Source: Rhizopus arrhizus
Taxonomy: Eukaryota; Mucoromycota; Mucoromycetes; Mucorales; Rhizopodaceae
Length of the DNA: 64,000 nucleotides
Assembly (NCBI GenBank): GCA_024220505.1
Contig: JAKZZE010000001.1
Coordinates: forward strand, 1,302,001 to 1,366,000
Reading direction: 5' to 3'
Shown: piece after piece, positions 26,896 to 51,228 of the stretch
Numbering within the stretch: the first letter of the stretch is position 1
Layout of the letters: every line of letters begins with the position of its first letter
Program-made: the position numbers and the translations under genes
The notes under the pieces: generated by a model
What the model saw: only the letters and a program-made list of their open reading frames with translations
Database searches by the model: none
Told to the model about the DNA's origin: nothing

Positions 26896-26961
26896 CAGTG
26901 CTTCCAAGAAGTAAGGTCACAGCCAATCAAAATCAATGTCACTAGCCAAATAAAAATAATG
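26896..26961 (+). repeat. left terminal inverted repeat of the 5-kb mariner element
   Basis: Sixty-six bases matching the reverse complement of 31880-31945 with one mismatch. Starts CAGTG directly after TA. Contains AGCCAATCAAAATCAATG, a motif repeated inside the right end. Confidence 0.92.
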
Positions 26962-27017
26962 GTTCTTTCACGAACTTAAACGTTACACACACTTCGACGA
27001 AAACAACTGTACTAATA

Positions 27018-28247
27018 ATGCCACCTGGCTCTACTAATCCAACCAACATTACGACTGCAACGAGTTCTCTGACTTTAGAGGAAATAGCAGACTTGCTTGT
27101 AAAGTTTGAAAGCTGCCGCAAAGTATTAGCTTGCCCTCAATGTACGAAAAAAGGAGTCTTTCGCCGCAATGGCAGTACTAAGTCTGAGCCTCCACAACCT
27201 GTTTTTCGCTGCAATGGCTGTGGAGTCAGCTATCGAGCTGCTACTATGAGATCCATTGTCCTTTCTTGCCTTCCTGCTTCCTCTCACATGTCTCCCATTG
27301 AGGAGAATATCGAAACTTCCAGACGCAATAATGAAGCTCCGACCAGCTCACAGAACTCACCCAGTGAAGATATCCACACTCTGTTAAGCATGATCCAACG
27401 CCTCACCAACGAGCTTGCCGCTGCCAGATCCGAAATCGAACAACTTCGTGCAACTACCGTACAGCTACAAAATCAGTTAAATCAGGTAAACCCAACCACC
27501 AATCAGCCTACAAGCACCTTAACAGCAAACGTTCAATCTTCACTTGATTTCCCAGAACTCACCACAGTCTCCGCACCTTGGCGTAACCCCGAACAGGTCA
27601 GTCGACTCAAAGAGGGTTTGCTACAGAAATAGCAACAAAGACGTCAACAACGCCAGGAGGCTGCTGCAAGACTTCTACAACCACTATCAGAGAACCAGGG
27701 CTTTCAGTATCTCTACCTTCCGACCAAGGCGCGAGTTCCTGTTGGACAACTACGATCTCGACTGCGTAAACTTGACATCAATAACAACCGCATCCTCGAT
27801 ACCCACTATCCTGATCGAAATGTCGTCGCTCTTTTGGTACACAATGACTATGTAGATGAACTTAGATCCCACCTCAGGAAATTCAAGGTTACCTTGAAAG
27901 ACGATTTTGATCCCTGCGATCCTATGATCCTACGTGACCCTAGATACTCTGATTCTACAACTGAGGAACGAACTAACATCGTATTCATGCACCATTGTAA
28001 CCGTATGGAACGCGCACTCAGATTTGTCCGTGCTCCAGTCAAATTTGCTGTAGCACGCTATTTCCATACTAAAGGCTGGATCAGTACACAGACCTTGCAG
28101 GAGACCCTTTCCTTTAATCGTCGTGTTAATCACACGCAACCTGAATCCATTTTCTTCGAAGATGACAACATGAGTACTGTGGAAGACCATAATGACACCC
28201 AGTCACACCTCACGGCATCCCATATGGAAGATGATCCTTCCTTATGA
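27018..28247 (+). pseudogene. zinc-ribbon/coiled-coil protein, ORF1-like, with one in-frame TAG
   Basis: One frame of 410 codons, open except for TAG at 27630-27632 after codon 204. The first part has a zinc ribbon (CPQC ... FRCNGCGVSYRAATMRSIV, residues about 37-77), then a polar linker and a coiled coil (LLSMIQRLTNELAAARSEIE, about 120-150). The part after the stop continues with Gln/Arg-rich QRRQQRQEAAARLLQPL and a folded-looking region to the end at 28247. The layout of zinc finger, coiled coil and basic segment resembles ORF1 proteins of Mucoralean LINEs; that comparison is from memory. It begins only 56 nt inside the left inverted repeat. It could still work if the stop is read through or if translation restarts; otherwise it is a young pseudogene. 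Confidence 0.6.
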
Positions 28248-28287
28248 GTACCATTAAGATTTCTCTTTTCAACGCCACATAGGCAAA

Positions 28288-29895
28288 ATGGTGGTTGAAA
28301 AAGTAGCAGATGGGTTCTGTTGCCCTGTTTGTGACCGCCTATACAAGTCAACTGTTGGTTTCAGAAATCATCTGGCAGTTCACGGTCTTTGCATTTCACT
28401 TCCTGCAGATCAAAAAATCATTCATCCCAGAAATAGCAGTGGTGGTAAATCATCTGACGACCTCGTGGAATCCGGTAAACTGAGCGCTCACGACATTGCT
28501 GTCCCTGCAAGTGAACAGTTCGACGGTGCTTCAGCAACATGTCTCACGCAATCAACGTTAACATCAAAGAAAAGGAAGTGTTTGGACTATGAATCCACCA
28601 TTTTGGCAAATTGCGATGCGTTGCCTGAAACCGAAGAAACAAAAGTGGACAAGCTGTCTATCGCCAGACTGGGTCGCTGGACGCCTATCACTCTCTCGGC
28701 ACCTGCTCGACAATATCACTTCTTAGCTTCTCCAACTACTGTAAGCGCAATAATGGAAGATCCGGATGCTGGTATGTGGTATATGCCGTTGAGGGTGTCG
28801 CCCAGCCATAGCTTTGAAGCAATAGATGGGGATATACTTGTACAAGCTGCTTTAATGAAATCGTAAGTCAAATTTTGTGTCTTGTATGTTTTTGTCATTT
28901 GAAAATCGACTGATCTTTAATTTCTTTTTAGGAAAATGGGCAAGCATTTGTTAAGAAACCGTTATGTGGAGTTTACCAAGGAAGATGGCGTTTTATTGAA
29001 CAAAGATTGGCTTCTTTACCCTGAAATGCGATACGTATGCTCTCAATTGTTGGCTGGTGCTATCCTTGAAAGCAATTCCCAGTCCCTTCTTGTCAACACA
29101 GTTGAACCCTATGGCCGATACGCATTGGATGATGCTCATCACGAACGTCGGTTCACGCCTGCTTCTTCCACATTTCCGACCAGTGAAACGCCGTATGGTT
29201 ACGTGCACGTGGTTTTGCTGTCATCGATGGAAAATGGCCAAAATAAACTCCACATTTCTAGCCGAGCCTGCGATCTTTTGATAACTTCCAGCTTGCGAAT
29301 TGACCAAGTTTCGGTGAATCTAGGGCCTGAGACAAGTCATTTCACATCCTGCTCTGGTACGCGTATATTCTTGGATAAGAAATCCCGACAGCAAGCTCTT
29401 GATTTGATGACAGGCGACCATTACTGTGAATCGCAAACGATGCCGTTCTTATACCAGCTCAAGCAAATTCGATCCAAATTTCACCATCTCTCTACGTATA
29501 CTCGCTGTCGAGCATCATCGGATTTTAGTTCAAGGCTTGAATTTCAACCATGCACGATTTGGACTCTCTCGGATCAAGACTCAACTCAGCACAGTATGTC
29601 TCAAGAGAAGTTGACGTCAATGGTTTTTCAAAAAATTGCCACGCAAGTCGTACGTAATGGTGTCAAAGCTTTGATCAAGTCGGATGATCTGGAAACAATT
29701 CGATCTCGTGCAACAGGAACTACTGTGGACAACTTCATCCGGAGGATACAGGAGCTGGGAAACGAATTGCAAATTATTGGCAACGTTCCTTTGAACAATA
29801 TTCTTACTGATATGACAGGACTCATGACCAGTGGATTACGAAAAAACAACGATCGAAAGATCGAAGCCATTACCAAGGAAGCATACCAGTGTTAG
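28288..29895 (+). CDS. C2H2 zinc-finger protein carried in the mariner element, function unknown
   Basis: Two exons (28288-28862 and 28932-29895, 69-nt intron, phase 2) give 512 residues. A single C2H2-type finger lies at the N-terminus (CCPVCDRLYKSTVGFRNHLAVH, shown here only by its C-x2-C and H-x3-5-H anchor residues), followed by a Ser-rich linker with KKRK. The rest is a globular-looking region with LGRWTPITLSAP, KHLLRNRYVEFTKEDG and a C-terminal helical part. I do not recognise it. No nuclease, RT or helicase motif is visible. Location between the mariner repeats, on the strand opposite the transposase and just 40 nt after the ORF1-like frame, suggests that it travels with the element. 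Confidence 0.65.
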
Positions 29896-30414: not shown

Positions 30415-31695
30415 TTACATAGGTTGTCTGTTTCGACATTTGTCCCAACACTGATAAGAATGCGAGACGAATCCTTTGAAATGACTTTGCTTCACACTGT
30501 TGCAGGCTTCTGTAATTCTCTTGGACAAAGTGTCTTCCTGCAAAAACCTATGACGCTTGACCTTACTCTTTGCTACTGCCCAGAATTGTTCAATTGGGTT
30601 AAGTTCAGGAGAGTAAGTAGGAAGATAGACACATTTATATCCTCGATACTCAATATACTTCTTTATGTTTTCATGGGTGTGAATTGGTGCATTATCCATA
30701 ATGATATGATAGCCTTTCATATGTGGGTGTTTGTCCATTTCATCGAGTGTCGTTTTTAAGAAACTGATATAGTGACCAGTAACAGTCCCTGAGCTTAAGT
30801 ATCCATCAGCTTTTCTCTTCTTCGCAGGTCTAGGTTTTTTTACGACGACGGTAATCAAACCCGAGGCAGAAATAGCACCCAGTATAGATGTTGTATTTGC
30901 TCTTGTAGTCGGCCTGGTAACAATAGCGCGAGTGCCTTTATTGGACCAGGCTCTTGAACGTTTCATATTTATATCAAAAGCAGACTCATCAAGAAACACG
31001 CAATTCGTCAGAAAGTTCATGTCTGTATTTTCCCATTTGCAAACCCAATTGTGCCTCTCTTCAATCTTTGCTGGACTGTTTCTCTCAATAGAATGAAATT
31101 CTGCTTTTTTCAACGAAAGGTTGCATTCACGCCTCATAAAGTTATTAACAGTGCTGCGTGATACTTTTAGATCATGAAATTGCTTCAATAAATGCTCAGT
31201 TACTTCAATAACAGTAGCAGAGGGATTAGCATCAATGAAGTTGATAACAGTCGTTTTATGTTCTTTAGTTAAGATACACTTACGACCTACTTTTTTACAG
31301 CTATCAAAAATACCGTCAGGGCACGCATTGTACTGGCTCACCCATCTATAAGCTGTTCGAGGGTGAATGCCCAACTGCTTTGCTGCTGCTGCTGCAGTCA
31401 TACACTTTTCAATCTTCAGATCGAAAAACCTAACTTTATCCTGAACTGTATAGCGCACATATTCTCGTTTTGGTTTTGCCTCCTTCATATGAACATCTTC
31501 ATTTTTTGGCTTTTCCAACATCGGATAAGTCATAGAAGATTCATTGGGGACTGCATTTCCCAAGTACTCTGTGTGAGTAGCAATAGTCTTAACAATAAAT
31601 TCATTCTGATCAACAATGTAGTCCATGGGCTCAGGACCACCGTTCTCATCAACAACATTCCCATGTCCATCTTCATATAGAAATATCGTACTCAT
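30415..31695 (-). CDS. DD34E Tc1/mariner-family transposase, open frame
   Basis: Uninterrupted 426-residue frame; the ATG at 31695 (MSTIFLYEDGHGN) is preferred over an upstream in-frame ATG at 31776 because the intervening residues are a Phe/Leu-rich tract that is probably UTR or intron (a GTGAGT lies there). Two N-terminal helix-turn-helix units (AAAAAKQLGIHPRTAYRWV and the region around SRSTVNNFMRR) bind the terminal repeats. The catalytic triad is D236 (CVFLDESAF), D334 (IIMDNAPIH) and E369 (SPELNPIEQFW), with 34 residues between the last two. A KKRK patch may act as nuclear signal. It is the only one of the three transposases here that is not broken. Confidence 0.93.
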   Translation of the reverse strand: MSTIFLYEDGHGNVVDENGGPEPMDYIVDQNEFIVKTIATHTEYLGNAVPNESSMTYPMLEKPKNEDVHMKEAKPKREYVRYTVQDKVRFFDLKIEKCMTAAAAAKQLGIHPRTAYRWVSQYNACPDGIFDSCKKVGRKCILTKEHKTTVINFIDANPSATVIEVTEHLLKQFHDLKVSRSTVNNFMRRECNLSLKKAEFHSIERNSPAKIEERHNWVCKWENTDMNFLTNCVFLDESAFDINMKRSRAWSNKGTRAIVTRPTTRANTTSILGAISASGLITVVVKKPRPAKKRKADGYLSSGTVTGHYISFLKTTLDEMDKHPHMKGYHIIMDNAPIHTHENIKKYIEYRGYKCVYLPTYSPELNPIEQFWAVAKSKVKRHRFLQEDTLSKRITEACNSVKQSHFKGFVSHSYQCWDKCRNRQPM

Positions 31696-31879
31696 GTTGA
31701 ATCGTAAAGTTTTGAAAAAGAAAAAAAACAAAAGGAAAAATGCACTCACTGTCTGTTTATATTTTTCAGGTGCCAAGAATCATGGTGCCTGATTTCTAAG
31801 CAGGCGCAAGTGACAACATTTCTAAAAATATGACATTGATTTTGATTGGCCAATGACATCAATTTTGGCTGACCAATGA

Positions 31880-31947: not shown

Positions 31948-33723
31948 CTTGCCCCTCAATATATCACTCATATTGTCATAGCAACTGAATTATACTAAGC
32001 TTTTTCTTTTGAGTTTGAAAAAGGTTTACTTGAAGGTTTTTATTTTCCCAATGGTTAGCATTTTACTTGTATAACTATCGATCATCACTAGCTACTTTAA
32101 TTATCGACGTAAACGAGTTGTTCGCTTTCTATTGCTTTGGTGAATAATTATTAAATAAATTATTCACCAGACCTGAGAAAGCCAATACCATATTCTTTGA
32201 GGTTAATGGGAGCATTGGTTCAAAACGGCATAAAAGCCTTTCGTTCAAAAATGGAAATTGAATTTTAAATAGGAGGCCGCATGTTTCAACTACAGTGTCT
32301 TCATTTCACACTCAGTCAAAGTAAAAATGATTTCAGATAGGTTATTTCAGACAATGTTTTTTTTTTTTTTTTTTTTTTTTTTAGACAACGAGAGCTGTTT
32401 TCAGACATACTAAACGTTGAAGTGTATTAGTTATGTAGCAAATCATAGTTTGATGATGGATATTTTTACCAGTAAAATCAAAGCTTTCTTAAGAAAATAC
32501 ATCTTCATACTCAGCAACATCAACTATTGGGAACTAATTGGTCAATAGCATACGTCGTTCTATTAGAGAGCAACCAAAGCAGTTACCTCACGTCAGTAAT
32601 AAAGCTAAATTAGCGGATATTCCAATCATTCTCACAAAAGAAACATTATGAATCCAATTGCAAGGTCAACAAACCTTTAAAAAAAGAGCAGAGTAGCCAA
32701 AAACATTGAACATGGTAGTGTTTGTCATGTTTTGACATGTCAATAAGATACAGTCTTATCGTTCTGGACTAAATCTTTACAAATGAGTTTGAATAAGAAT
32801 AGATCCTGATAATTATCACTGCCCTAAACAGCCAAGTCTCACTTTCATCTCAACAGTTGATTATTAACATCAGTTTATAAAATACTCTTAATGTCAAATC
32901 ATATCGGTCGTAACTACCTTTTGTCATCTAATCTCAGGTCTTGCTTAACTAATAAAAATAGTCTTGAAATCTTTCTTTAATAAAAGTATTCGACTTTAGA
33001 ACTATTGTTCGGTCTCGTTAATTCTTCTTTGTCTTATTTTGTAATATCTAAAACACTTCAGTGTTTTTCAAGTTGTACGCTCTCGACAAGTACAGATAAA
33101 AGTTTCGCGCACCAAGCAGAGAAATCTGAAAAGCTTACTCTTTTATCCATATTTCAAACTACCAAATGAAATAGGGAAATTTGTAGGACTATAAGGACCC
33201 TATTTCTTTTGATTTGATAAATCAATATGTGTAGTTTAAAGCAGAGCGAGACAGCCGCTCAAGTTTTGAAATATGACTTGAATCACAGTCATATCCAAAA
33301 GCATTTCATTGATATCTTTAATTTTTCACCACTTTTTCCTTGAAAAAATTTACCCTATCAAATTATTCTGTCTAATAAAGCAATTAATTATTTAAAAGGT
33401 GTAGAAAGAAGCGCATTCAGATTGAAAGCAGTAAATTTACAAAATACTATCTTTTTATTATGTTGAATGTTACTTAATATATTGTAATGATAGCAACTGA
33501 ATCAGTACTTGCAAACAAAGGCAGCTTGATATTAGTATTATTTTTTTTTTAAAAAAAAAATTATGAAATCTAAAATTGTATCTTGTTGTATTGCAAATCC
33601 ATTTAATCAAAATATTAACGTATAGTGTATATGTTTGAGGTCAAAGAAGACGAAAAGAAAAGACTAAGGATGATAATGAAGCCAAAACTGAAAAAAAAAA
33701 GAAAAAATTAAAAACGTCAGCGT
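31948..33723. other. intergenic, AT-rich
   Basis: About 1.8 kb with no supported gene. Has T24 (32359-32382) and a perfect T/A hairpin near 33541-33560. Likely old, unrecognisable repeat debris. Confidence 0.5.
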
Positions 33724-35280
33724 TTGGATAATGAAAAATCCAGCAGTGATATCTCATCAGTTTCAAGAAGTACGTCTTGCGGTCAACTAAGACATGCTAA
33801 CGCAAAGGAGTGTAAAAGCTACAAGCCGACCCTTAATGGGTTTTTAAACAATCACTTTGGTGGTCAATTCGAGCGCTTCACTCGTAAAGTATGCTTAAAA
33901 TCTTTTATAGACCAACATATTAAGATGGTTTTGATGATAAAGTCACAAAACATAGTGAGTTCACTAAAAATGTCATCTTTCGTGCTCAGGTATTTTTAAA
34001 AAGCTATGTAGTTCAATGTCAAGCCTTTAGCGCTTTGGATGTCATAAACCAACAGAATTTTTAATACTCAAGCTGTCAATTGATAACAGGTCAATATGTA
34101 ACAAACAAGGCCTTTGTTTCGAACGGAATAGCTCTTGCTTTCAATGAAATGAAGTGTCAATACCCACAACTTGTCTATTCTTTGAAAGACCATCCCATCA
34201 AAGGATATAGCGATTCATTATCTGCAGCTTGTACTGATGTTTCAACATTTTGCTTAAAGCATATTGCTGAAAATTTTAAAAGAGCCTTGTATTACTTGTA
34301 CATTATTCTTAAGAAGCTCTTGATGTAATGACTATTGAATATACAAATCGAGTACTTGAAATATACCAGGAACTTAAAAATCAATTTTCCAGTTTTGCCA
34401 AATATTTAACTTTCATTACCTCGTCCACCAAGCTTGTACCTGCTCTGGCTTTTGTAGTCGACGAACTTGAGGAAGTTTGTAAACGCAGTTCCAAACAATC
34501 TGAAATAACTAGGGTTTTTTCCTTTAATGCCTACCCCAGATTTACATTAAAGACCTGCTATCATCAATCCAAAATCTCTCGCTATAATTACCAAACTGAA
34601 GATCGATACAAGCTGTAAAGAAAATGTGAACAGTTTTATTCCACTTTTGATTCCAGTACCTTTGAATATCGAAGATAAAAACTGAAATATTTGTACATCA
34701 ACCTAAATACATACATACGCTTATCTTTAGTCTTGAGCAGCTGTTATCAAGTGACATTACTGAACGTTTCACATGTTGTATTCACACGGATGGTTACAGT
34801 GTGTGCTTATATTCGCCATAAAGGCAAATAATAATGTAATTAACAACAATGTTTTTTCAATCTGAAGGGCTTTCATACTGTTTAAATAGATAAATACTTT
34901 ACGCCATGCACAGTTGATCTGGAAAGAAAGTACGTCTTCACAGTAACCACTACTCACTCGTTAGAAGAGAAGGAGATAAGACTCTGTAGTACCAAGGAGA
35001 GAGCGTTCTATACTAGTACAGCAAGAAGAGCAGCTTATATGGAAAAATTGAAAGTTAAAAAAAAAACATTAAAGATATTGAAACAAATACGCCGACAATT
35101 AAAATGATTAACGAGCAAAAAAACGGGTTAATACATTCACTATGCACTACACCATTTAACTGCTTTATTCAGTTTTTATAATCAAAAGTCTCCTGCCTTC
35201 TGTTTCCGCAATTATCAAAGAATACAGAGAGCAAATTCAGAAGCTGCTAATATTTTATTGAATGGTGGCAAAAGGTAACC
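33724..35280 (+). pseudogene. Fanzor-like (TnpB-related) gene relic A, C-terminus missing
   Basis: Frame fragments in plus orientation line up in order with the other two Fanzor-like relics. N-terminal part: FTRKVCLKSFIDQHI, then YPQLVYSLKDHPIKGYSDSL and HIAENFKRALYYLYIILKKL, which parallels AHFGNRLRGLINKLLKKK of relic B. The wedge/RuvC-entry motif IHTDGYSVCLYS (about 34778-34813) matches KSDGFSV of C and ETDGIGA of B. RuvC-I is degraded to TVDLERKYVFT near 34910-34940 (intact family: LDPGRK). Then CSTKERAFYTST, and FYNQKSPAFCFRNYQ...ANILLNGGK (35173-35272) parallels FYGKDTAYHRFQLYQ...ANMLTRG of C. Several frameshifts and stops. No RuvC-III or zinc finger follows. Assignment is by motif order and similarity between relics, so moderate confidence. 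Confidence 0.5.
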
Positions 35281-35418
35281 TAAATAAAAATTTCGTTTAG
35301 TACATCTATTATTGTCGCTTTGTACTTGTTTTAATGTAATACCTGTATTAAATGACCAAAGCGATAACCTTGGTGGAGAATTTTTTGTAATTTTCCTACT
35401 TTTGTTCTACTTAGATGA

Positions 35419-38295
35419 TCAGTCTAAAAGATATTTTCTGGTGAAAAGGCTAGGGCGTTTGCCAGTCTTTCTCAAACTGTTTAGGATCTTGAGAAAATTC
35501 AATACGGCTGCTTTTATTCCTGTGGCTTGTTGTTTAAGACATGAGAGGCTCTTACACCTAGTAATGCATTGGTTACCAAGAATTAATCTAGTTTTTTCTT
35601 CTTCTTTAGATTACCTCAGCAAACCATTGCATAGCGCGTCTGGCTTCTTTTTCCGTTGGTAAGGGGAGGATTTGGCACGGTTTTAAATTTTTTTAATTCA
35701 TTTTCACAGGTTGGACAATGGGAAGATGTTTTGTATTCATTGACTAAGTAGACAACAAACCCGTTCTTCTTTAACATCCTGATTAACCCTTTGCTTCCTT
35801 TCGGTTCTTGATACTTGACATTAAGGGCGGACCATATCTCCAAAAACTAAGACAGCATCTTGACCAAACTTTGCTTTTAAGCTACGCACTAATTTTTGAT
35901 CATTCTGGTCAAAGAAGAGTTTAGTTGAAAACTTTAATTTTCGAAAAGGTAAAAGTTGTAGCTTTTCTAATGCTGTACTGATAGTCTTTTTGTAATTGCT
36001 TTGCTGTGGTTGTCTACACATCTCTTTTGCCAGCCCTAGAACTTTGCTTTCTCACTATTATCTAGTCTTTCTGAAATATGCTTTTGTTGTAGCATTGTTT
36101 GTAGGTAGGTAGCATACAGTTGAGACTTTCGCAGAGCTATCAGTAGAGAAATTCTCAGGTTGAGTGAAAAAACCACGGATTCTTACTATGAACAGATTTC
36201 CATAATACAAATTACATTTTTGGTCGACTCGAAAGTCAAATTCGGATTCAGGGAAATATGTTTCTTTAGACTTTGTTGTCTCATTTCCATAATATTCGTA
36301 CAAAGTGTTTTTTACTGATGCTCTTGTTTTAATGCACTGTACAAACTTTTTCAAGTTTACAGTTGGATTCAGATCTAGAAAGGATTGCTTCGGCTTTCTG
36401 GATCACAAAAGGTTGAGTACGCTTTCTTAAATATCTGAAGTGCCTTGAACATTTTGAGTGGTTGTTCTTGGTAAATATAAGTGTTTGGTTTTCTTCAACA
36501 GTACTGGTTTCTTTCATGCAGTACATCAAGTCCCGCCTTCCAGGGTCTATCAAGACGCACTTGCCTTCAGTGCTCTTTAAGTCGGCTTGACATAATCCTT
36601 CAATATGCTCTGTTTGATTACCGTCCACTTTCTTTTCAGTATTGGGTTTAGGCGAATTTCTACTTGTATCAGTATTTTGCTTTATTATGGAGGCACCGAT
36701 TCCATCGGTCTCGAGAGTTCCTTGGAACCGCAAAGACTTTTGAAATCCTTGATACTTAAACGCCTTTTTGTTTAGGTCTACGACGGCACTCCATGTCTCA
36801 AACTTGCTTCCTGTTTTTGTATTCTTTTTCTCTTGAAAATATGGTAATGGATTATTTTGCTATCCAACATCATGTAGCAAGGAATAAAGATGGTACGTAG
36901 CGGGAAACAAGCAAACCGTTTCATCTGTTCAGCTTCAGACAATTTAGCAAGTCTGAAGAAGGCTTTGAAATGGTTTTTTGGACTAGCCATAACGTCATAG
37001 TAAATTGAGTTCTCTTGAAAAGTGTAGTGCTCTGGGTAGCTTGAGAGAAAATCATTTAATTGCGTTCTTGATTGATCATCTAAAAGACCAACTTCAGGCA
37101 TCTCTTTTTTTGCAATGGCAAGCTTCACCTGATTGCAAGGTCGATAAATCATCTTTCAGGTAGCTTCTTTTATCGCTTTACTACTAGACTTGTTTGCTTG
37201 CATTTCTCCTCTGAGACTCTCTGCCTTTTCCTTCTTTTTAAGTAACTTGTTTATCAAACCACGCAGCCTGTTTCCAAAATGAGCTTTGATGTTATTATGG
37301 TAGGCCGTTTGGATCTTTTTACACTCGTACAGGGCTATTTGCTGAGCATATGGCAAGTTTGGGGGAGTATAACCAGCATCTTCAAAGTAAGCTTCTTTAT
37401 ATTTTGATATCAGTCGCCTATAGTTTTTGGTCGTATCCTTCAGCCTTGTGCTATTTCCACCCTTTGAGAGAACAAGACTCAGAAAAACTTCAACAAAAAA
37501 ATCTTTTGTCATAAAGTTGTTCAACGCAAAATTTTCATTTGCTGCCAGTTCTTGTAAATATATGTACTTTGTGAAGGCAAAGGTATGTGTAACTAGTAAG
37601 TTGGTAGTGTGAATCAAACCATACAATGGCTGTAAATATGCTGGTTTCTAAATATTTTTTTACAGTCGTTTTAATTGTTATCACACGCTTGCTTATCTTC
37701 TTAGGGCCTTCTTTAATGCCACTTGTCTTGTCAACAGACACAGGACAAAAACTTGATTTGGCAGAAGTTGCAGCTGAATTGAAAACAGTTGGAACAGATT
37801 TACTAGGCTTGGGGGAACCTGGACTTGTTTTAGAAGCAGTTGTGCTTGACTCCACAGCAGCAGAAGTTGATTTGGTGATACGAAAAGCAGACTTGGTTGA
37901 TTCACTCAAAAAGGGTCTTTTGACAACAGGTGCATCAAAATCGTCACTGCTATATTCAAGATCATAGTCATCAAGAGTGATCTTATTGATCATGGTAGAT
38001 TCATCTGTTGTAGAGATACCAGTACTACCTGTAGTAGTAACTTCAGAATCTGTAGCTTTTCCTTTGCCTTTGAGCCTCTTTTATAATCCACTTTGTGGAG
38101 TATTTTCCCTACCTATGATGGGTTTTCATACGTTAGGCTAGCTGTTTACCTACATCAAGTTTGACATTGCAACTTTCTTTTTCTTTTTCTAGCTGTTACA
38201 GCGGGTTGGAAGTCGTCGTCTGAGCTGTCTTCTACATATATTTCAAACGAGTCTATAATAGTATCAATCTTGTCGTCAGTGACATTTCGATCCAT
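35419..38295 (-). pseudogene. Fanzor-like (TnpB-related) RNA-guided nuclease gene relic B, near full length
   Basis: Minus-strand relic, convergent with A. Likely start at 38295: acidic N-terminus (VEDSSDDDFQP) then KRKRK nuclear signal. The body spans several shifted frames: TVKKYLETSIF, PKNHFKAFFRLAKLSE, LETDGIGASII, RuvC-I VLIDPGRRDLMYC (catalytic Asp codon 36545-36547), DAVLVFGD, then FVVYLVNEYKTSSHCPTCEN (35706-35774), which holds the Glu that serves as the rearranged RuvC-II residue in Fanzors (known from the family) and half of the zinc finger. The C-terminal helix VLNFLKILNSLRKTGKRPS fits the end of RuvC-III, but the expected R-D before it is replaced by G-I. Breaks seen: frameshifts near 37620, 36815, 36365, 35840, an in-frame TGA at 37156-37158, and a stop near 35607. 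Not functional as it stands. Confidence 0.7.
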
Positions 38296-38895
38296 TATTA
38301 GATATGGAGCCTACAGTTTTCGCTCTTAGGTGACTTCTTTTGGTTTAAAGAGAATAAAGTATCTTTTTGCTTTCCTTTCATTTTTCAATGCGTTTTTATG
38401 AGTGAAATATACGAACAAAAAGAAAAAGTGTCTCCAGAAATTGATTTAAATGTTGAAAAGAAATACTCTCATCCCATTCATATAGATTTATTCAAACACA
38501 GCTACAACCGAATAATAGTAATGTGTCTACAATGAGCTTACACCATGTAGTAGCTTGCAATAAAAGATATTTGTTTTCTAGATTCACATAGAATAGTAGT
38601 TATAGTATATAGGACTCGAGGAGTTATTAGCGTCTGAGTGTGTCAAGTTCTTTATGTTTTTTCATCAAACCTCAATGATAAATATATTAAGAACATACTT
38701 GATAAGCATAAAATGTTGGAACGTCATTTTGTAATGGCACTGTATAATGATGATATATTCACTGATCAAAATATCCATTAAAGGCCCTTTGCTGATCCCA
38801 ATAAAACTGGCTTAATCATACTAATTCTCGCAAGGTTTACATTCTAAAAAAGTATGGCCTTGTGAAAATATCATAGTATGATTTTAAAAGCATGT
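38296..38895. other. intergenic within the mobile-element island
   Basis: About 600 bases between the start of Fanzor relic B and the end of the second transposase relic. AT-rich; no frame or terminal repeat that I can support. Confidence 0.5.
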
Positions 38896-40168
38896 TCACA
38901 TGGGTGTTTTATTACAACAGTGGATGGTTTGACTAGAGAGGCTATAAAGAACTTGATTACAAGCATCAGCACTTCGACTCGATAAGTTTTCATTCGACGA
39001 TGTTTGAGCTTTCCTTTAACTATAGCCTAAAACTGCTCAATTGGGTTGAGCTCTGGCGAACAAGGAGGTAAGTACATTACTCTATAACCTCTACTGTCAT
39101 TTTTTCTTATCATTGGATGAGACTTATGAATAATACAGTAGTTTATTACAAGATAACTACCCATAAGACTTTCGTCCATGTCCATGATATCAAGAAGCTC
39201 ACTTATAGAACTTACAAAATGGGCAGTAGTTGTACCTTTTGCTACTGGCTTGTTGTTCTCGATGGCAGTACTCTCCTCCACACCAAAGTACTCTATAGTA
39301 GGCTCTTTAATAATAATGTCGCCTGCTCTTTGCTCTTTGCCTCCTGCAAGCTTTATTTTTTATTTTTTATTTTTTTTTTTTTATTTTTTTATTTTTTATT
39401 TTTTTTTTATTTATTTATTTATTTTTTTTATTTGGCTGTCTTCAATACAGCCTCATCAATAAAAATGCAGTTCTTAGTGTAACCCAGATTCGAGCCTTTC
39501 CACTTCATGAACCACTCGTATCTCGTTTGCAAGTTATTGTCAGAGTTTCTTGTCACAGGGTCGAAGGTTGGCTTCTTTATTGAAATGTGCATGTTGTTCC
39601 TCAAGTGGTGGTTCATTTGAGAATTTGAAGTCTTCAAGTCCTCAAACTGTTATTTCCGAGAAATAATAATATCATCAGCACAAAGTTGTGAGTTTTTTCT
39701 ACTATTTGTTGAATGTGCTGCTGATTCTCAGGAGTCAGTGAGTTGGGTAGGCCGGGATTTTTTTGCAACGTTTTGTAAACTACCTTCCCAGTTTCTTGAT
39801 AGTGTTTCCACCAGCGCATAGCAGTACAAGGATTAATTCCAAGATCCTTTGCATGCAAAGTCACTTCCTCTTTCCGTAGGACCCTCTTTCATTCGGTCAA
39901 TAAATATCTCTCTGGTTTGATCGTTGTAGTCTTTGTAGACGCTGCTTTCTTGACAACTTCTGTAGTCTTTTTTGTTGAATCTTTTGCAGTAGTTTCTTTC
40001 TCTGCTGGTTTGAGACTCGATAAGAGTTTTGGCTCGTTATGGCTTCAAGTATTACGTTTGGATCAATGATTTCGGTTAATACACCTTCCATCGGATCGAA
40101 GACTCTCTATCCATCCTTATTGTAGACATTATTGTGTCCGTTTTCATAAAAAATGTATTTTTTGTCAT
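38896..40168 (-). pseudogene. broken DD34E Tc1/mariner transposase, relic 2
   Basis: Collinear with the intact transposase but shorter. Start region KYIFYENGHNNVYNKDG parallels IFLYEDGHGNV; then HTH residues (DLGINPCTAMRWWKHY), SIKKPTFDPVTRN, CIFIDEAV (first catalytic Asp) and VMYLPPCSPELNPIEQF with the final Glu. Stops and shifts: TAG after NKDG (about 40113), frame changes near 39650 and 39430, TAG replacing the Trp after NPIEQF (near 39030), and another shift before ENLSSRSADACNQV. A T-rich insertion at about 39351-39430 interrupts the catalytic domain between the two Asp blocks. No terminal inverted repeats were found, so the ends of the element are unknown. Confidence 0.75.
39353..39432. 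repeat. T-rich low-complexity insertion in transposase relic 2
   Basis: Eighty bases of (T3-12 A)n sequence inserted in the transposase relic between the block with the first catalytic Asp and the downstream catalytic part. May be replication slippage or the tail of another insertion. Confidence 0.75.
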
Positions 40169-41074
40169 GTTATTCAATTGTTAGAGCGAAAGGAAGAATT
40201 AGAACTTTTACATCATAGCCGACAATAATCTCTCAGCAACCCCAATTTGACTTGGCCCAAAAAGACAAAGTAAAATCTTCAAAAGCAACAATTTTTGCAA
40301 GCAAACAGCCAAATATTTTTCAGATAGTGCTATTCATTCCTAGGTAATCGCCATTTATTTTTTCAGAACAGACAAAATTTACCAGCCGCACTGTGTAATA
40401 AACTTTCACCCATTTGATCTACTAACAAGGACTCATGCCATTCAATGTCTTCATATGCATCGACGTCTGCAAATGCCACGATCTATCCCTGACCCTCTGT
40501 CATTTCTCTTAAACAAGCTGCCCACTTCCAAAAAGAAACCAACCGACAAAAACCGCTCAAATCATATTGCATGGTCTATTCGTTGGCCAATTATCTGTCA
40601 AATTTTACATGAACTCGATTATTTGCATCACGATCAAATCTCTCCTGATGTTCCCCCTTTTGGTCAAAAATTATTATCTTGGTTATTCTCTAGCTCTTAA
40701 ATGTATGGATTACACCTTCCTATCATCTTCCCTTCTTTATCCTTTTTACCTTTTTGGCTATCAAAAAGGTTTTTAGTTTCTCTAACACTTCTTTGAACTG
40801 GCCCGGGCAATACAATATGTCAAATATTATGTGCTCATTTTGGGTTTTAAAATTTTTTACAAATAAAAAATTATTCTTTAATCGTATAATAAACGTTTAC
40901 TAAAATTAACAAAGAACTTTTCTTAAAAACTCTAATGTTTTCCAAAATCCTTAATAAAACTTTTCCAATAATAATTTAAATCTCAGTATTCAGCCAAGTA
41001 AGTTTCTTTAAAAGGAAATTTTAAAGCAAAGCAAGAAAAAATCCGTGCCTTCTTTTTTTTCTTTATAATTGAAA
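40169..41074. other. intergenic with a possible retroelement fragment
   Basis: About 900 bases. A frame at 40455-40700 (81 residues: SFLLNKLPTSKKKPTDKN, WPIICQILHELDYLHHD) resembles the C-terminal tail of Mucoralean non-LTR RT proteins as I remember them, but no RT motif is present, so it is only noted here. The rest is AT-rich; 40955-41070 is the likely promoter of the UBX gene. Confidence 0.35.
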
Positions 41075-41907
41075 ATGTCTGGTCCTGAAGCATCAAATGT
41101 TGATAGACAACTTAAGATTTTAAGCCCACCAAAGAATACACCTTCTATACGTAAGCTTTAAATTACAAAGTTTTCACAGAGAGAGTAACATTTTTTTATT
41201 TAAAAGCTGAATTGCCAGAATCCGCTTATAGATTAGATAACAATGAACTCAAGAAATTATATCAATCCAGCATAGAAAGAAGAGAAAAACTTGAAAATAG
41301 GTAGGAAAAAAAAAAGCAGAAACATAATAAAGAAAAAGTGTTATATTAAATTAATTCAAACAGTCCATTGAAAACACAAAAGATGAGAGATGCAGAAGAA
41401 CAAGAAAAATTAAAAAAACATCCCAAGACAACTATTCGAGTTCGTATGCCTGATCATACAATTGTCCAAGCTACATTTCAGTCAAAAGAAAAGAGTAAAA
41501 TGAATATTTAATTTAACCCAGTTGTAATAATATCATTTTTGTTAGTATCTGATTTGTATGAATTTATACGCACCTTGTTGGAAACACCAGAACGTAAATT
41601 TGTGCTATGTCTACCTCCTCGAACAAAACTTATTGACCCAATGATCAGCTTATATAAAGCTGGATTATCTCCAGCTTCAAATATCTTGTTTGGTTGGATT
41701 GAAAAGGGTAATAATGATTCAGGTTTGAAGAAAGAATTTGTGGACATGAAGCAAGAGTTATCTTTACCAAGTCAAGCAACAGAATCATCATCTCAAATCT
41801 CAGCTAGCAGCAGCACTAGTAGTAGCAGTAACCAGACAGCGTCCAACACTTCAACTAAAAAGGCTGTACCCAAATGGCTTCAAAAAGGTTTATTTAACAA
41901 GAAATAA
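41075..41907 (+). CDS. UBX-domain protein (TUG/ASPL-like C-terminal part)
   Basis: Four exons (41075-41150, 41207-41300, 41364-41494, 41546-41907) give 220 residues. A UBX domain, the ubiquitin-like fold that binds the N-domain of Cdc48/p97, spans about residues 75-165: TTIRVRMPDHTIVQATF, ISDLYEFIRTLL, FVLCLPPRTKLID and ASNILFGWIEKG. Flanks are a short helical N-terminus and a Ser-rich tail ending PKWLQKGLFNKK. This order and tail resemble the C-terminal half of TUG/ASPSCR1, without its N-terminal ubiquitin-like domains; no room is seen upstream for them. Likely a Cdc48 adaptor (inferred). It is an intact gene inside the mobile-element island. Confidence 0.85.
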
Positions 41908-42016
41908 AGAACATATGCATAATGGAATGTATAAACAGGTTTTTTAATTTATTTCTACTATTACAAAAGAAAAGTACTTCTTTTTAAATTTGAGTGTTAT
42001 TTACGATAAAAGGAAT

Positions 42017-42331
42017 TTAGAATTGGTAACCAGTTTGTTCAGTGTAGAGCTTTGCAGCTTCTTCTTCAGCTTGCTTCTTGGCCTTGTGGCGGTCAACCCA
42101 GTCCATACCCTTAGTTTCAGCGAGGTGGTCAACAGAAGCAGCAGCCAAAGCAGCAAGCAGGTTCTTGGCGACATGGTGATCGTTTTCAGGGTTAGCACCT
42201 TCTTCTTCCTTCTTCTTGTTATAGGCGCGCATGGCAGCAAAACCACCGGCAGCAGCAAGGAGTTCATGAGTCCATTCAGCCTTGTTCTCATCGGCTTCGA
42301 TTTTGTTGTAGGCTTCTTCGTGGTAGGACAT
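42017..42331 (-). CDS. CipC-like stress protein, DUF3759
   Basis: Intronless 104-residue protein: MSYHEEAYNKIEADENKAEW, THELLAAAGGFAAMRAYN, HHVAKNLLAALAAASVD, KGMDWVDRHKAKKQAEEEA. This is the CipC (concanamycin-induced protein C)/DUF3759 family, small cytosolic proteins in many fungi induced by stress or growth on hosts and wood; molecular function unknown. Third codon positions are notably C/G-rich compared with neighbours, suggesting high expression. ATG at 42331 gives the family's usual MS[YF] start. Confidence 0.88.
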   Translation of the reverse strand: MSYHEEAYNKIEADENKAEWTHELLAAAGGFAAMRAYNKKKEEEGANPENDHHVAKNLLAALAAASVDHLAETKGMDWVDRHKAKKQAEEEAAKLYTEQTGYQF

Positions 42332-43036
42332 GTTTATTTTAATGATTTGAATTTGTCCCAAAATCACTCTCTTTTTATACTTTTCGTAGCATTAAGCATC
42401 GTAAGACCCTTTATTTTTAAACTTTTCCTTTTTCTGTCGAGCGTCCGGAAAAAGATTTTGGGTTAGTATTTTATGCTCCCGAATACATGCAAACTGGTTC
42501 GCACAAATAAGTAAAAGAACCTTTTTTCGGTAGAAAGACGCGTCTGTAATTCATGCTGTTTAAAGTTTTTTAATAATAATCTAGAACTCCTTTTCTTTTA
42601 CTAAAGATATCCTTCTTTTACTGTTTTCACTTTCTATTTTTTTGTTTCTTGATAAAATGAAATTTAATATAAAGTTCATATTAGTCTCTAGTGTAACTCA
42701 TTAGCCTTAGTTTGCTTTTTCTTAATCTATGGTGAAACTCGAACTTTTAGAAGAGCATCTAACCAAGTTGGTATAAATTCATGTTTACACAATCTCTGTA
42801 TGTAAGCAATTTATGATAACCAAGTTGTCTCTAAAAGCATTGTGATTCACAAAAGGCCTTTTCGTATAGTTCTTTAAACACATTCCTTTTTTATTTGAGG
42901 GCTTTGTTATATTAACCAATTACACAGTTTTAACTCCTATCCAAAAAAAGTTACTCTATTTGAGGCGCTTAATCGCCTCGCTTAGCACCCACATCTTGGA
43001 CTTGACATCATTGTTCGGAAACGGGCTATAAACCTC

Positions 43037-43080
<44 letters not shown>

Positions 43081-43254
43081 ATGAGCTGTGATTTTTCAGT
43101 GATAAGTATATTTATATACTTAAAGAAATGAACATGCATATTACGATTTTCATTATAGCTCTATGTTCGTTCGGCTTTATAGATAGAAAGGATTACACTA
43201 TTTCCACTTCAATTTCGACCAAATGAACTTGCTTATTTCGTCCATTTGTGTACC
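42332..43254. other. intergenic with long T tract
   Basis: About 920 bases. T-rich tract at 43036-43075 (40 bases with one C). Upstream part is the likely CipC promoter. No gene recognised. Confidence 0.5.
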
Positions 43255-44021
43255 ATGGCTCTTTCGCCTAATAAATTTTTGAGTAACCATTCCGCTGACC
43301 CACCGGGTAGCAAACAACTTTCATCTCCAACGTTCAAGGCTCGACCGTTGAACAACCAACTTTGGCCTTGCCTTCATTTGCAGATCTATTACCAAAAAAC
43401 CAAGTTGTCAATTCCTCGACGTATGATTCCATCGCTAGTCGTTCATCTCGTAGAAAATCTCCACCTCGCAAGGAGTATTCTCTGTTCACTTCTGATAAGG
43501 CTCCACTCATTTTCAAAGCTGGCACGGCTGCTCATTCCGTGTTTTATTCGGTCCCTAAGCGTTTGCAAAGTCTCCAACCTTTGCTCCACTCTAAGTTGAG
43601 AGAACTTTTTCCCGTTAATGTTGGCTTAGGTCTGACAGTTAAACCTGAGCCCAGTAACATTCAAATTGAACTTGCGCTAGCTTCTGCTACAGATTGCGAG
43701 AGAGCTGCTACCACACCTATCGTCGTTGAGAATCACACCTTTAAGGCTACACTTACCTACTCCTCTGAGAATATTTTGCATAAGATCAACCTTACTGACA
43801 TTACCTGCGCCTCCGACGAGTATTTGAAATCTCGATTGCAATCCACTTTTGAACGTTTTGGTATCGTTAAAAATATTGTTTTATATCATGATGATATTAG
43901 CCGTGAATGGTTTACTGGTAATGGTCATGTGTACCTGGAAATTCCTCGTAATCCCAGTACCGAACTCGAGCCTTTGGAATACCGTATCAGTTTATCCGAC
44001 AGCATTAGCACCCTTTATTAA
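43255..44021 (+). pseudogene. non-LTR retroelement ORF1-like fragment
   Basis: Two overlapping frames appear to be one gene split by a frameshift near 43350: MALSPNKFLSNHSADP... then ALPSFADLLPKNQVV, SRSSRRKSPPRKEYS, HTFKATLTYSS, NLTDITCASDEYLKS, FGIVKNIVLYHDD, GNGHVYLEIP and LEYRISLSDSISTLY. The pattern of a basic Ser/Arg linker followed by an RRM-like fold fits ORF1 proteins of Mucoralean retroelements, which normally continue into CCHC zinc knuckles; here the frame ends before any. It lies 130 nt upstream of Fanzor relic C, in the same orientation. Family assignment is from memory of such proteins. Confidence 0.45.
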
Positions 44022-44149
44022 GGAAGCCCTGCCACAAGGCTACCAGAATCAACTTAATATGTTTTGCCGTGTTTTTAATTTTAAAAAATTACGTTTAAGG
44101 TATGATATGATATTACATAATAGGCTTTTTTACTTAAATTTACAATAGC

Positions 44150-45253
44150 ATGGACGATCTCACACCCAACGAAAACAACAAGATACTATTCGGAAATACA
44201 ATCAAATCTGATGGCTTTTCTGTTGACTTTGTGTTTTATCGAAAGGAAAGAATGAATAATGGCTCTGACGTTGAATTAACCCTCGAAGACTTCAACTACG
44301 AAGAAGTTCACAATCAATATCATCCAATGTTCCTTGACCCTGGGCGTAAATCATTATTCACGACAGTTGTTGGCGTAGCTTCTGCCAAGCAGATCCGGAA
44401 GTCCTCTGTAAAAGAATATTATCATTTAACAGGTAGTACTGTCTATAGCAAAAATCTCGAGTTAAAAAAAATGTTCTGGCATCAAGACGATCGAGTCCCA
44501 AATTTACACACCAAAAACAGCAGCAGTTGGATCATACGATCAATATGTTAAATACACGCTAACAAACCTTGACAAGCTCCTGGATTTCTATGGCAAAGAC
44601 ACTGCATATCACCGATTCCAGCTTTATCAAAGCCGATAGAAGGCACTGGAAATGATGGCTAACATGTTGACTCGTGGAACAGCCAAGTACAACAGATCAC
44701 GGAGAAAGCGAAAGAAGAAGAAGGAGGACAAGAATGATAAGAAGGAAGATGAAGGGTTATCATTGCGCACTGACGAAAAGAAGTAAGCAATTGGCCTTTC
44801 TTTAATAGACGTTATTAACTTTTTTTTTGAAAGGTTGAAGTGGTGGCCCCTTCCTTTCCAAGAAAACAAAGAAAAGTGTCCGTTAGTCGTTTTTGGTGCC
44901 GGTGTTTTCGGCAAGGATATGGTCAAGATGAAAGAGCTTCGGTGTGGGGTGATAGAAAAACTTTTTGCAATGTTGAAAAAACGTGAAGCAGCTGGTGAGT
45001 TGATCGTCATGACGATCGACGAATTTAAAACATCAAAGACGTGTAGCTCCTGTTTTTCGATGATCTTAAAGTAGTCAAAACACCCGATTTTAAGGGCAAA
45101 GGTGTTCTCAGTTGCTCTAAATGTAAGAAGGTTTGGCAACGAGACGTCAACGCCGCCACTAATATGATGACGATCTCTGAGGCAGTTCGGATGGGAGAAG
45201 GACGACCGGAAGTTTTCAAACCGAAGAAAAACGATGGTGAAGGAAGATCCTGA
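44150..45253 (+). pseudogene. Fanzor-like (TnpB-related) gene relic C, N-terminus missing, catalytic end kept
   Basis: Plus-strand relic keeping the nuclease half. Order: ILFGNTIKSDGFSVDFVF; RuvC-I MFLDPGRKSLFTTVVGV (Asp codon 44336-44338); EYYHLTGSTVYSK; FYGKDTAYHRFQLYQ; basic RSRRKRKKKKEDKN; intron 44783-44834 (GTAAGC...AAG); CPLVVFGAGVFGKD; IVMTIDEFKTSKTCSSCF with the Fanzor-type Glu and first zinc pair (45042-45053); second pair CSKC (45113-45124); RuvC-III QRDVNAATNMM with Asp at 45143-45145; tail EGRPEVFKPKKN. Breaks: frameshift near 44490, TAG at 44637-44639 where the frame otherwise runs on (probably CAG originally), and a shift at about 45062. All three RuvC acidic residues and four zinc cysteines are still encoded. 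RNA-guided DNA cleavage is known for Fanzors, not shown here. Confidence 0.75.
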
Positions 45254-45850
45254 ACTTGGTAAGATCCCTTTCAAGTACGCTTGAGTCCTCGATAATCTTA
45301 AGGCCGAACGTGAACGGATTACCACCATCGATATTGCTCTCTTGAAGCTCGAAACCCCACACTATCATTGATGCTCCTGGTCACAGAGATTTCATCAAGA
45401 CCATATTTACTGGTACTTTTCTCAAGCAGATCATGTAATTCTTATCATTGTTGGTGATGCTGCTGATATTTCCAAGGATGATCAAACCCGTGAACACGCT
45501 CTTCTTGTCTTCACCCTCAGTGTCCATCAATTAACTGTTGCTACCAACAAGATCCAAGTGGTCCGAAGCTCGTTACAACGACATTGTCAAGGAGGTCTCC
45601 TTCTTCATCAAGCAGATTGGCTTCAACCCCAAGTCTGTTCCTTTCGTCCCCATTTCTGGCTGACACGATAATTACATACCTGATGACAACACGTCTCTGT
45701 CAAGGATATCCGTCGTGGTAACATCTGCTCTGACTCCAAGAAAAATCCTGCTAAAAAAGTTGATTCTTTCACTGCTAAAGTTATTATCTTGAACCACCCT
45801 AGTTAAATCTTTGCAGGTCACACCGCATTTCCAATCCAAATATCGTCGTA
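45252..45850 (+). pseudogene. translation elongation factor EF-1alpha pseudogene fragment
   Basis: Damaged piece of EF-1alpha beginning at GELGK-type sequence (ELGKIPFKYA) and running through [79 protein letters not shown] and [11 protein letters not shown]. Many frameshifts, small deletions and stops, including the TGA in the Trp codon of KYAW. Missing are the N-terminal P-loop and the last third. Its first base abuts the stop codon of Fanzor relic C exactly. No intron is visible in the fragment. Confidence 0.85.
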
Positions 45851-46046
45851 ACAAACACGGTTTTCCTTTCTTCTGAAAGGATTAAGATCATTACAGGTAA
45901 AAAAAATCTGAACATAAACCTCCATTCGTCTCAAAATTAATTTTTTTTCGTCTGATTTCTATTTTTGTTTCATCCAAAAAAGGTAAGCTAAAAAATACTA
46001 ATATCGTCTGTATTTAAAGTAGAAATACTGTCATGCATCTTAGCAT

Positions 46047-49626: not shown

Positions 49627-51228
49627 TTGAAATCATTTTGGAACATAAAAATAAATCAAATTGAAACGCAGATCGAAAATGTTTTGAAACAAAAATGAAA
49701 ATTGAATTGGCACAAATGATGGTGTCCCAAATGTACCAAATTTTTATCTTTATTAGATGGGGCTTTTTTCTAAACAGTCAGAGAACTTAGCTACAGAATA
49801 CTTGCAAAATTCACGCAAGCCGCTGATCAGCACATTGTTGCAAGCAACTCTGATTCTGGAAATCAAAATTTCTTCTTCCAAAAGAGCTTCTCTCTTGAGC
49901 TTGCTTTTGCAAACAGACCAAAACTATTCAATTGGATTGAGCTCGGGAGAGTACGGAGGCAAATAAATGCAATCATAGCCTCGGATTTCAATGTAAATTC
50001 TAATATCTGTATGCTTATGAATTGGTACATTATCCATTACGAGATAATGCCCTTTGAATAGCTCATGCTTATATATAACATCTAAAGTCATTGCAATAAA
50101 ATTAAAATAATGGCCAGTAGCTGTCCCACATTTACCTTTTCCAACAACAACCGAGCTACCAGATTCCGCCTTTCGTTTCTTTGAAGGTCCTGCTACCTTG
50201 GAAGACTTGACCTTTATGTTGACCACGCCATATGGAGATATAGCTCCAATGATGGTGGTAATCTTTGCTCTTATCTTTGGTGTTACGACAACGGCACGTT
50301 CTCCTTTCTTTGGCCATGCCATAGAGCGCTTCAAGTTGATATGGAAGGCAGCCTCGTCTATAAAAACGCAGTTACTCTCAAAGTCCAAATCAGTCTTCTC
50401 CCACTGCTTAACCCATTGGTATCTTTCTTCGATTTTCTGAGGGTTGTTTCGCTCGATTGAATGAAAATGTGCTCTCTTCAGACTGATCCTACACTTTTCT
50501 GTTACAAACTCGTGCAGAGAGTTTTTGGAAATCTTCAGATCAGTAAACTTAGTCAAGCTCTTCATCATTTCATCCAAAACAATGCTAGACTTTACGCCAA
50601 CAAGATTTGTGAGATAATTCTTGTGAATATCATTCAGAACTGCTGGCCGTCCCACCTTCACAGCACCCCTTGCTCCACCCTTCTCAATATCTTCATCGAG
50701 CTCTAAGCTTTTCAATCCTTTCTTGTGCCAATTGTATGCAGTGCTTGAAGGAACTTTTATTTCTGCAGCAGCAGCACCACGAATGGACATTCTCTTCTCG
50801 TTTACCAAGTAGAAAAACTCCTCCATACCCTCTTTCTTGTACTTTCTGTACGTCTTTTTACTACTCACTTTTTTTTTTCTGAAGAAGAGAGATCCTCTTC
50901 GGGTACTTCTTTCTTATCCTATTGCATCTTTTCAGGAGGCTTGAGATCATTGTACTAATCGAAGTTGGTAACATCGTCTAAGGGATAGTTGACCTCATCA
51001 ACTTCCATCTTCATTCCGACGAACTGATCGCCTTCTACATCGAGCATGTTTCCCATACCATCTTCTTGGATAAAGGAATTCATTTTGGTTTAAAAGCAGT
51101 TATTTATATGGTTTAAAGAAAAGAGGTAATTCAAAAAATGTCCCAACTGTTTGTGCCAATTCAATTTGATTTATTTTTATGTTCCAAAATGATTTCAATG
51201 TGTGTCCCAATAATTTTCGGAAATAGTG
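49627..51228. mobile_element. degraded Tc1/mariner element 3
   Basis: Inverted arms of about 39 bp (49627-49665 and 51160-51198; TTGAAATCATTTTGGAACAT) flank a transposase relic. The right arm continues outward to CACTATTTCC (reverse strand) and a TA at 51229-51230, the probable true terminus. On the left the outer 30 or so bases are missing or diverged, so the element is truncated. A further matching stretch ATTGAATTGGCACAAA lies inside both arms. Confidence 0.75.
49757..51083 (-). pseudogene. broken DD34E Tc1/mariner transposase, relic 3
   Basis: Start region at 51083 (MNSFIQEDGMGNMLDVEGD, like the N-terminus of the intact copy), with two TAG codons before an A-run frameshift near 50870. 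The long open part (50868-49924) has the HTH (SIRGAAAAEIKVPSSTAYNW), CVFIDEAAFHIN (first Asp), LVMDNVPIHKH (second Asp) and YSPELNPIE (last Glu), i.e. a full DD34E triad. The frame then meets TAG exactly where the intact copy has Gln (NPIEQFW) and reads on for 50 more residues to about 49757. All four visible lesions are one-base events, so inactivation looks fairly recent. Confidence 0.85.

Follow-up and report, generated by a model that had tools for sequence, protein, structure and literature searches.

Three decayed Fanzor1-type transposons of three families, adjacent in a Rhizopus arrhizus genome

Described Fanzor1 systems and the Rhizopus locus

Fanzor1 proteins were reported by Bao and Jurka in 2013 (PMC3627910) from Mariner elements, with or without a transposase, and Table 1 of that paper includes four Fanzor1 families, bearing the prefix ROr, from Rhizopus oryzae RA 99-880. 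Solved structures exist for SpuFz1, the Fanzor1 of Spizellomyces punctatus (PDB 8gkh), and for PpFz1, Fanzor 1 of Parasitella parasitica (PDB 9cf0-9cf3, PMC11423790). The latter source describes PpFz1 with a 75-nt omegaRNA, an ATN TAM and an FRI insertion in its RuvC domain, the insertion being stated there to be “only found” in Parasitella and Rhizopus. A pattern of alternative Glu, RuvC and zinc-ribbon residues is given as the Fanzor signature in PMC10711439.

The stretch under study (C1:1302001-1366000, in a 50.3-Mb genome of 41 contigs), all 64,000 nucleotides of which are called the window below, contains what are very probably three decayed Fanzor1-type transposons from three families, adjacent in Rhizopus and gathered by independent insertion and later deletion (Table 1). 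The kind is already known: these are pseudogenised Fanzor1 transposons, and nothing is unusual in their type. In layout element B agrees, and A and C probably agree, with PGv-1, PUl-1 and PUl-4 (PMC3627910), which have mariner TIRs, a TA duplication and a Fanzor gene with or without a transposase. The differences are that PGv-1, PUl-1 and PUl-4 come from other hosts, that our family C adds an eEF1A fragment, and that its transposase occurs in either orientation (two copies). The ROr families belong to the same genus, and families B, C or D of this genome may be identical with them.

Table 1. Features of the three elements in the window (positions counted from its first letter)
Feature	Position	Strand	Remarks
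Element A, 3'-truncated	32293..35275	+	Left end mariner-like (TA-CAGTG...); then a long 5' part without coding capacity and a Fanzor relic
Fanzor relic A	33712..35266	+	N-terminal part, zinc-knuckle-like stretch, decayed RuvC-I; no TNB, no RuvC-III
Element B, Tc1/mariner transposon with Fanzor and transposase	35276..40393	-	Fanzor-3' end lost at 35276, other end kept at 40393
Fanzor1 relic B (PpFz1 family)	35419..38295	-	At least 7 open pieces, frames broken
Tc1/mariner (DDE_3) transposase relic of element B	39027..40106	-	PF13358 at E 3.7e-7, above cut-off
Element C	43196..46030	+	Mariner-like ends CA[CG]TATTTC.ACTT..A.TTC
Piece of another multi-copy repeat, replacing the N-terminal part of Fanzor C	43254..44003	+	ORF without Pfam match above cut-off
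Fanzor relic C	44002..45252	+	LDPGRK, DEFKTSKTCSSC and QRDVNAA; frameshifts and stops
Captured eEF1A GTPase-domain fragment without P-loop	45240..45667	+	78% identical to host eEF1A gene

The three elements and their sister copies

The relics are weak alone and were tested through sister copies elsewhere in the genome. In the profile search of the fragments proposed by the earlier note, pieces from the window reached 19-21 bits, below the curated 26.3-bit cut-off of the zinc-ribbon family PF07282 (20.7 bits, E 4.8e-4, for relic B; 19.1 and 21.4 bits for two pieces of relic C), and relic A had no match. Genome-wide the profile finds 43 places, 42 of them above the cut-off, and no window locus is among these matches. 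Beyond families A, B and C, family D and others (L050-L056) account for 34 further PF07282 places, 22 of which have a 186-aa C-terminal frame; L050 has long inverted flanks and may belong to the MuDR-type elements reported from Rhizopus in 2013. Homology to families B, C and D was used to collect 164 database proteins, among which 77 match window B, 72 match window C and 38 match window A at E 1e-4 or better, more than would be expected by chance. DPG, alternative Glu and CxxC follow one another in order in 42 of the 164, and 14 also have the [QN]RD of a stricter pattern, both counts being drawn from a set with many partial gene models. The assignment of all three relics to Fanzor in the earlier note holds: family B leads to PpFz1 and SpuFz1 in the PDB, the profile of family C has SpuFz1 as its best match, and A is homologous to C. 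The same note had placed Tc1/mariner elements next to the relics. Such elements are present, but the relics themselves bear ends of Tc1/mariner type (B) or mariner-like ends (A, C). Its ranges likewise fit in part: read by eye, Fanzor B does begin at 38295, but the transposons are larger, A beginning at 32293, B extending to 40393 and C occupying 43196-46030.

Family B is a Tc1/mariner transposon: it encodes a DDE transposase, and four of the five copies read have TIRs and a TA duplication. These four (L045, L046, L047 and L049) measure 5064-5227 bp and have imperfect TIRs with TA on both sides; one element end reads TA-CAGTGGGGCTGGTAAATTTTGTC, the opposite one TA-CA[AG]TGCGACTA[AG]TAAATTT. 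An inverted-repeat search inside the window copy found no TIR because one end of that element is missing. Where the window transposase relic sits, L046 has a 265-aa open frame with PF13358 on the same strand as its Fanzor gene. Copy L048 is without the usual mariner TIRs and has a different 27-bp inverted pair near 555-582 and 5774-5800, as if its Fanzor-transposase unit had changed ends or lay inside another transposon. The 48 DNA matches of family B resolve into at least 40 loci including the window, mostly at 89-93% identity (40 of 81 candidates scored), and at least five loci have a frame open across all 838 aligned residues (54 of 363 candidates scored). Open relatives, for which the earlier note had suggested a search, exist in family B, and dispersed copies were found for all three families; the copy counts of A, B and C are lower bounds, since only part of the candidates were scored.

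The protein of the open copy L046 matches PpFz1 at 1065 bits, in an alignment that opens at residue 141 and runs through the rest of the long frame (residues 141-838), and SpuFz1 at 141 bits (E 3.5e-40); no other PDB sequence matched it at E 1 or better. Rhizopus arrhizus and R. delemar supply the nearest database proteins (P0001, 94% across 87% of the query), and two Parasitella proteins are 60-65% identical to the family. Open copies L045 and L046 carry DPG, the alternative Glu six residues before CxxC, and the RuvC-III Asp, the Fanzor1 signature. As in PpFz1, intact B copies retain the FRI insertion (residues 615-715 of the L046 protein) and a PQP loop, which by position would be the P614/P616 cyclophilin contact of PpFz1. 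Across 47 aligned rows that hold both flanks of this loop, 29 have PQP, 9 a gap and 9 other letters. PQP and the insertion also occur in proteins from Helicostylum pulchrum (P0049), Mucor flavus (P0057, P0074), Gilbertella persicaria (P0058) and Mucor mucedo (P0059). On the alignment, then, the cyclophilin-binding FRI insertion is perhaps broader in Mucorales than published, which would be new; a wider spread argues against a tie to mycoparasitism. A sister family, B2, is 42% identical to B and has at least two copies (L057 at C23:648494-650296, and C2:1447396-1449198), whose open frames measure 617 and 639 aa; in the one that was read, L057, the FRI insertion is absent.

The window copy of B differs from PpFz1 in being a pseudogene that has no RuvC-III Asp, reads TQP in the loop and has lost its 3' end. 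The earlier note had seen the whole series of motifs in it. RuvC-I LIDPGRRD and NEYKTSSHCPTC are indeed present, with the RuvC-I Asp and the alternative Glu retained, but an in-frame deletion takes out the RuvC-III motif together with its Asp. The DNA for WNRDQAA is kept in all five other B copies read, where the motif would lie downstream of the long frame, past an apparent intron.

In relic C, the motifs that the earlier note had read (Table 1) are all present, though in broken frames. Judged by its residues, the family of this relic is a Fanzor1 family, with DPG, the alternative Glu, a C4 zinc ribbon and RD. In alignment A1, which holds 14 homologues of C, the alternative Glu E430, T433 and S434 are invariant (14/14), and D211 of RuvC-I, C440, C461, C464, R470 and D471 are kept in at least 90%, which is the signature given in PMC10711439. 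The C-terminal frame of copy L004 reaches 44.6 bits with PF07282, and the family C profile, set against solved structures, ranks SpuFz1 first (E 2e-14), with LaTranC and TnpB-like proteins next; database protein P0093 matches the NCBIfam RNA-guided TnpB model at E 5e-7, below that model's cut-off. The likeness to SpuFz1 is distant, and families A, C and D differ from it, by eye, in carrying an N-terminal zinc-knuckle-like stretch.

Window positions 44002-46030 recur at 91-96% identity in at least 12 further loci (40 of 50 candidates scored). The 750-bp foreign piece before them is 96% identical to three other loci end to end and to three more in part, and the matches listed include none to family C near its other copies. 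The right end of element C is common to six of the eight copies read and is followed by TA in five of these six; TA is absent after the right end in the window copy and in L007. The left-end sequence, similar to the right end but degenerate, is shared with L059, L061 and L062, and no family C copy among those read has TA at both ends. A Tc1/mariner transposase is present in two of the four copies with the 5' part read (L061 and L062); the end sequence of L059 leads straight into the Fanzor part with no transposase between, and L058 shows neither arrangement. The transposase of L061 (257-1408) is oriented oppositely to that of L062. End-like repeats flank the L061 transposase on either side, as they would if it were a mariner nested in the element. 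Given the mariner-like ends and the transposase in two C copies, A and C are probably of the same general kind as B, that is, cut-and-paste and mariner-like.

For relic A the earlier note had proposed the same full order of motifs. Its N-terminal part and a decayed RuvC-I (VDLERK, against DPGRK in sister copies L037 and L039) are there, but the element is cut at 35275, ahead of the zinc ribbon and RuvC-III, and the truncated relic does not show the Fanzor1 signature of DPG, alternative Glu, C4 zinc ribbon and RD. Its “SEAANIL” aligns with “PEMMANIL” of family C, not with RDVNAA. With nothing from Pfam under E 0.01 on the relic A fragments and no TNB in the window, one might take relic A for some other zinc-knuckle protein of a transposon. 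We think this very unlikely: DPGRK stands in L037 and L039, the CxxC...NRD end of L038 and L039 (NRN in L042) is homologous to family C, and the window copy is matched by database proteins P0162 (E 1e-16) and P0129, its relatives having Mycotypha and Mucor flavus as hosts. By tblastn, relic A matches family C in its N-terminal part (E 4e-12) and in its middle part (E 5e-11). We regard A as an old and diverged Fanzor family related to C. Its long matches number at least nine, fall on at least 8 further loci and are 70-77% identical (40 of 79 candidates scored). TIR-like ends of the CAGT...TTCAGAC kind with TA are seen at the window left end and at three of the five right ends read (L037, L038 and L042); such an end was not seen at the right ends of L039 and L040. 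A single transposase match turned up among the A loci, next to L044, and it is a B-type piece.

Separate origins and clustering

The earlier note had taken the relics for separate invasions, with no local duplication, and this is borne out. Families A, B and C are each dispersed over many contigs. A tree of the RuvC-I block was computed from 29 of 33 rows, after L038 and L040 (A), B_L046 and B2_L057, each with fewer than 70 of 192 residues, were dropped. The A copies group together (0.983) and then with proteins of Helicostylum and Mycotypha (0.976), and the C copies form a clade of their own (0.989), grouped weakly with proteins of Parasitella and Gilbertella (0.538); the long branches of C copies L001 and L005 are probably due to frameshifts. 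The split between A and C would, on this tree, be older than the separation of the genera Helicostylum, Mycotypha, Parasitella and Gilbertella. B has no RuvC-I block that tblastn can align to family C at E 0.01, and it gave no alignable residues for the tree. That all three lie within 12 kb, and that A and C are homologous with related ends, could suggest a single insertion that was duplicated locally and diverged later. This appears extremely unlikely, since B lacks a tblastn-detectable RuvC-I block in common with family C and differs in its ends, relic C is 91-96% identical to at least 12 loci elsewhere but shares 31% identity with relic A across the RuvC-I block, and the two group with different relatives, well supported for A and weakly for C. 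Independent insertion and later deletion very probably brought the three elements together. Element A ends at its junction with B (35275/35276); just beyond element B no A-like sequence was found.

The nest of Fanzors that the earlier note thought notable does consist of three elements, but as a cluster it is weakly unusual. We placed 98 points at random, window included (9 A, 40 B, 13 C, 34 other PF07282 and 2 B2, the element counts being lower bounds), on a single line without contig boundaries or TE-rich regions; where one copy gave more than one match, these counted as one point (48 B rows giving 40). A triple within 12 kb arises in 2.65% of these placements. Four pairs within 12 kb are observed against 2.2 expected, a number reached by 19% of random sets, and three quarters of the observed pairs are the window triple itself. 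The rarity of the triple, and B abutting A, could point to a favoured insertion site or a safe haven for Fanzor elements, one conceivable route being homing that Fanzors guide into older elements of their kind. We consider this improbable, given the pair statistics, the lower-bound counts and the ordinary TE-rich regions that explain the cluster: the window holds two further DDE_3 transposases, so that TE-rich surroundings suffice.

Those two Tc1/mariner transposases (30415-31779, -, and 49924-50913, -; frames of 454 and 329 aa) are 44% identical to each other. Elsewhere in the window, four adjacent long frames at 26946-29895 (+) resemble the first part of a LINE-type retrotransposon; the three of them that were searched had no Pfam match above its cut-off. 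Two CotH-family genes in opposite orientation (6214-8041, +, and 13280-15087, -) are nearly identical in their N-terminal parts but have diverged in their C-terminal parts, a pattern that an inverted duplication or gene conversion would leave.

Captured host sequence and the proposed mechanism

Directly after the Fanzor stop, family C carries the eEF1A fragment. In the window it matches host gene L060 by blastn at E 3e-109, beginning past the P-loop, and it has indels and no open GTPase frame; L060 is itself identified as EF-1_alpha by TIGR00483 (347 bits across half of the model). The fragment is present in seven of eight other C copies examined (L001 and L003-L008) and mostly deleted in L002. 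Four R. arrhizus gene models (P0096, P0100, P0103 and P0106) have PF00009 beside a Fanzor part, and TIGR00483 matches P0096 at 94 bits and P0103 at 72 bits. No report of such a fragment was found in open-access article text on Fanzor with elongation factor or Rhizopus, and its position right after the family C Fanzor gene is perhaps a new observation. Fanzor guide RNAs are encoded between the Fanzor stop and the right end of the element. One could accordingly imagine that family C captured the P-loop-less eEF1A sequence in this interval and spread with it, and that the fragment could join the guide-RNA transcript or its processing; we rate this a long shot. If true, it would tie an element with an RNA-guided nuclease to an essential multicopy host gene.

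As the earlier note had advised, we looked for a conserved 3' guide (omega) RNA, and none emerged clearly: Rfam gave no match on the whole window, folding of the 3' ends of two B copies gave z-scores of -0.3 to -1.4 and no clear signal, and sliding identity across B copies showed no clear excess at the 3' end. The ends, TA sites and open frames of its sister copies show that B in life was a cut-and-paste transposon of the Tc1/mariner type that encoded its own transposase. If the homology to PpFz1 and SpuFz1 is a guide, the Fanzor protein would bind an omegaRNA copied from the 3' end of the element. The complex would cut matching DNA, for example at the site just vacated by the element, and repair would then copy the element back, a form of homing that would agree with what is known of Fanzor and TnpB. 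The window copies themselves cannot work: A is truncated ahead of the catalytic C-terminus, B has broken frames and has lost both its RuvC-III Asp and its Fanzor-side end, and in C the frames are broken and the N-terminal part is foreign.

As to what Fanzor elements carry at their 3' ends, the eEF1A capture offers a minor curiosity that is open to test. One Rhizopus Fanzor1 lineage, in which open copies are present, is linked to the structurally solved PpFz1. Several old, independent Fanzor1 lineages reside, in what look like mariner-type transposons, within one Mucorales genome.
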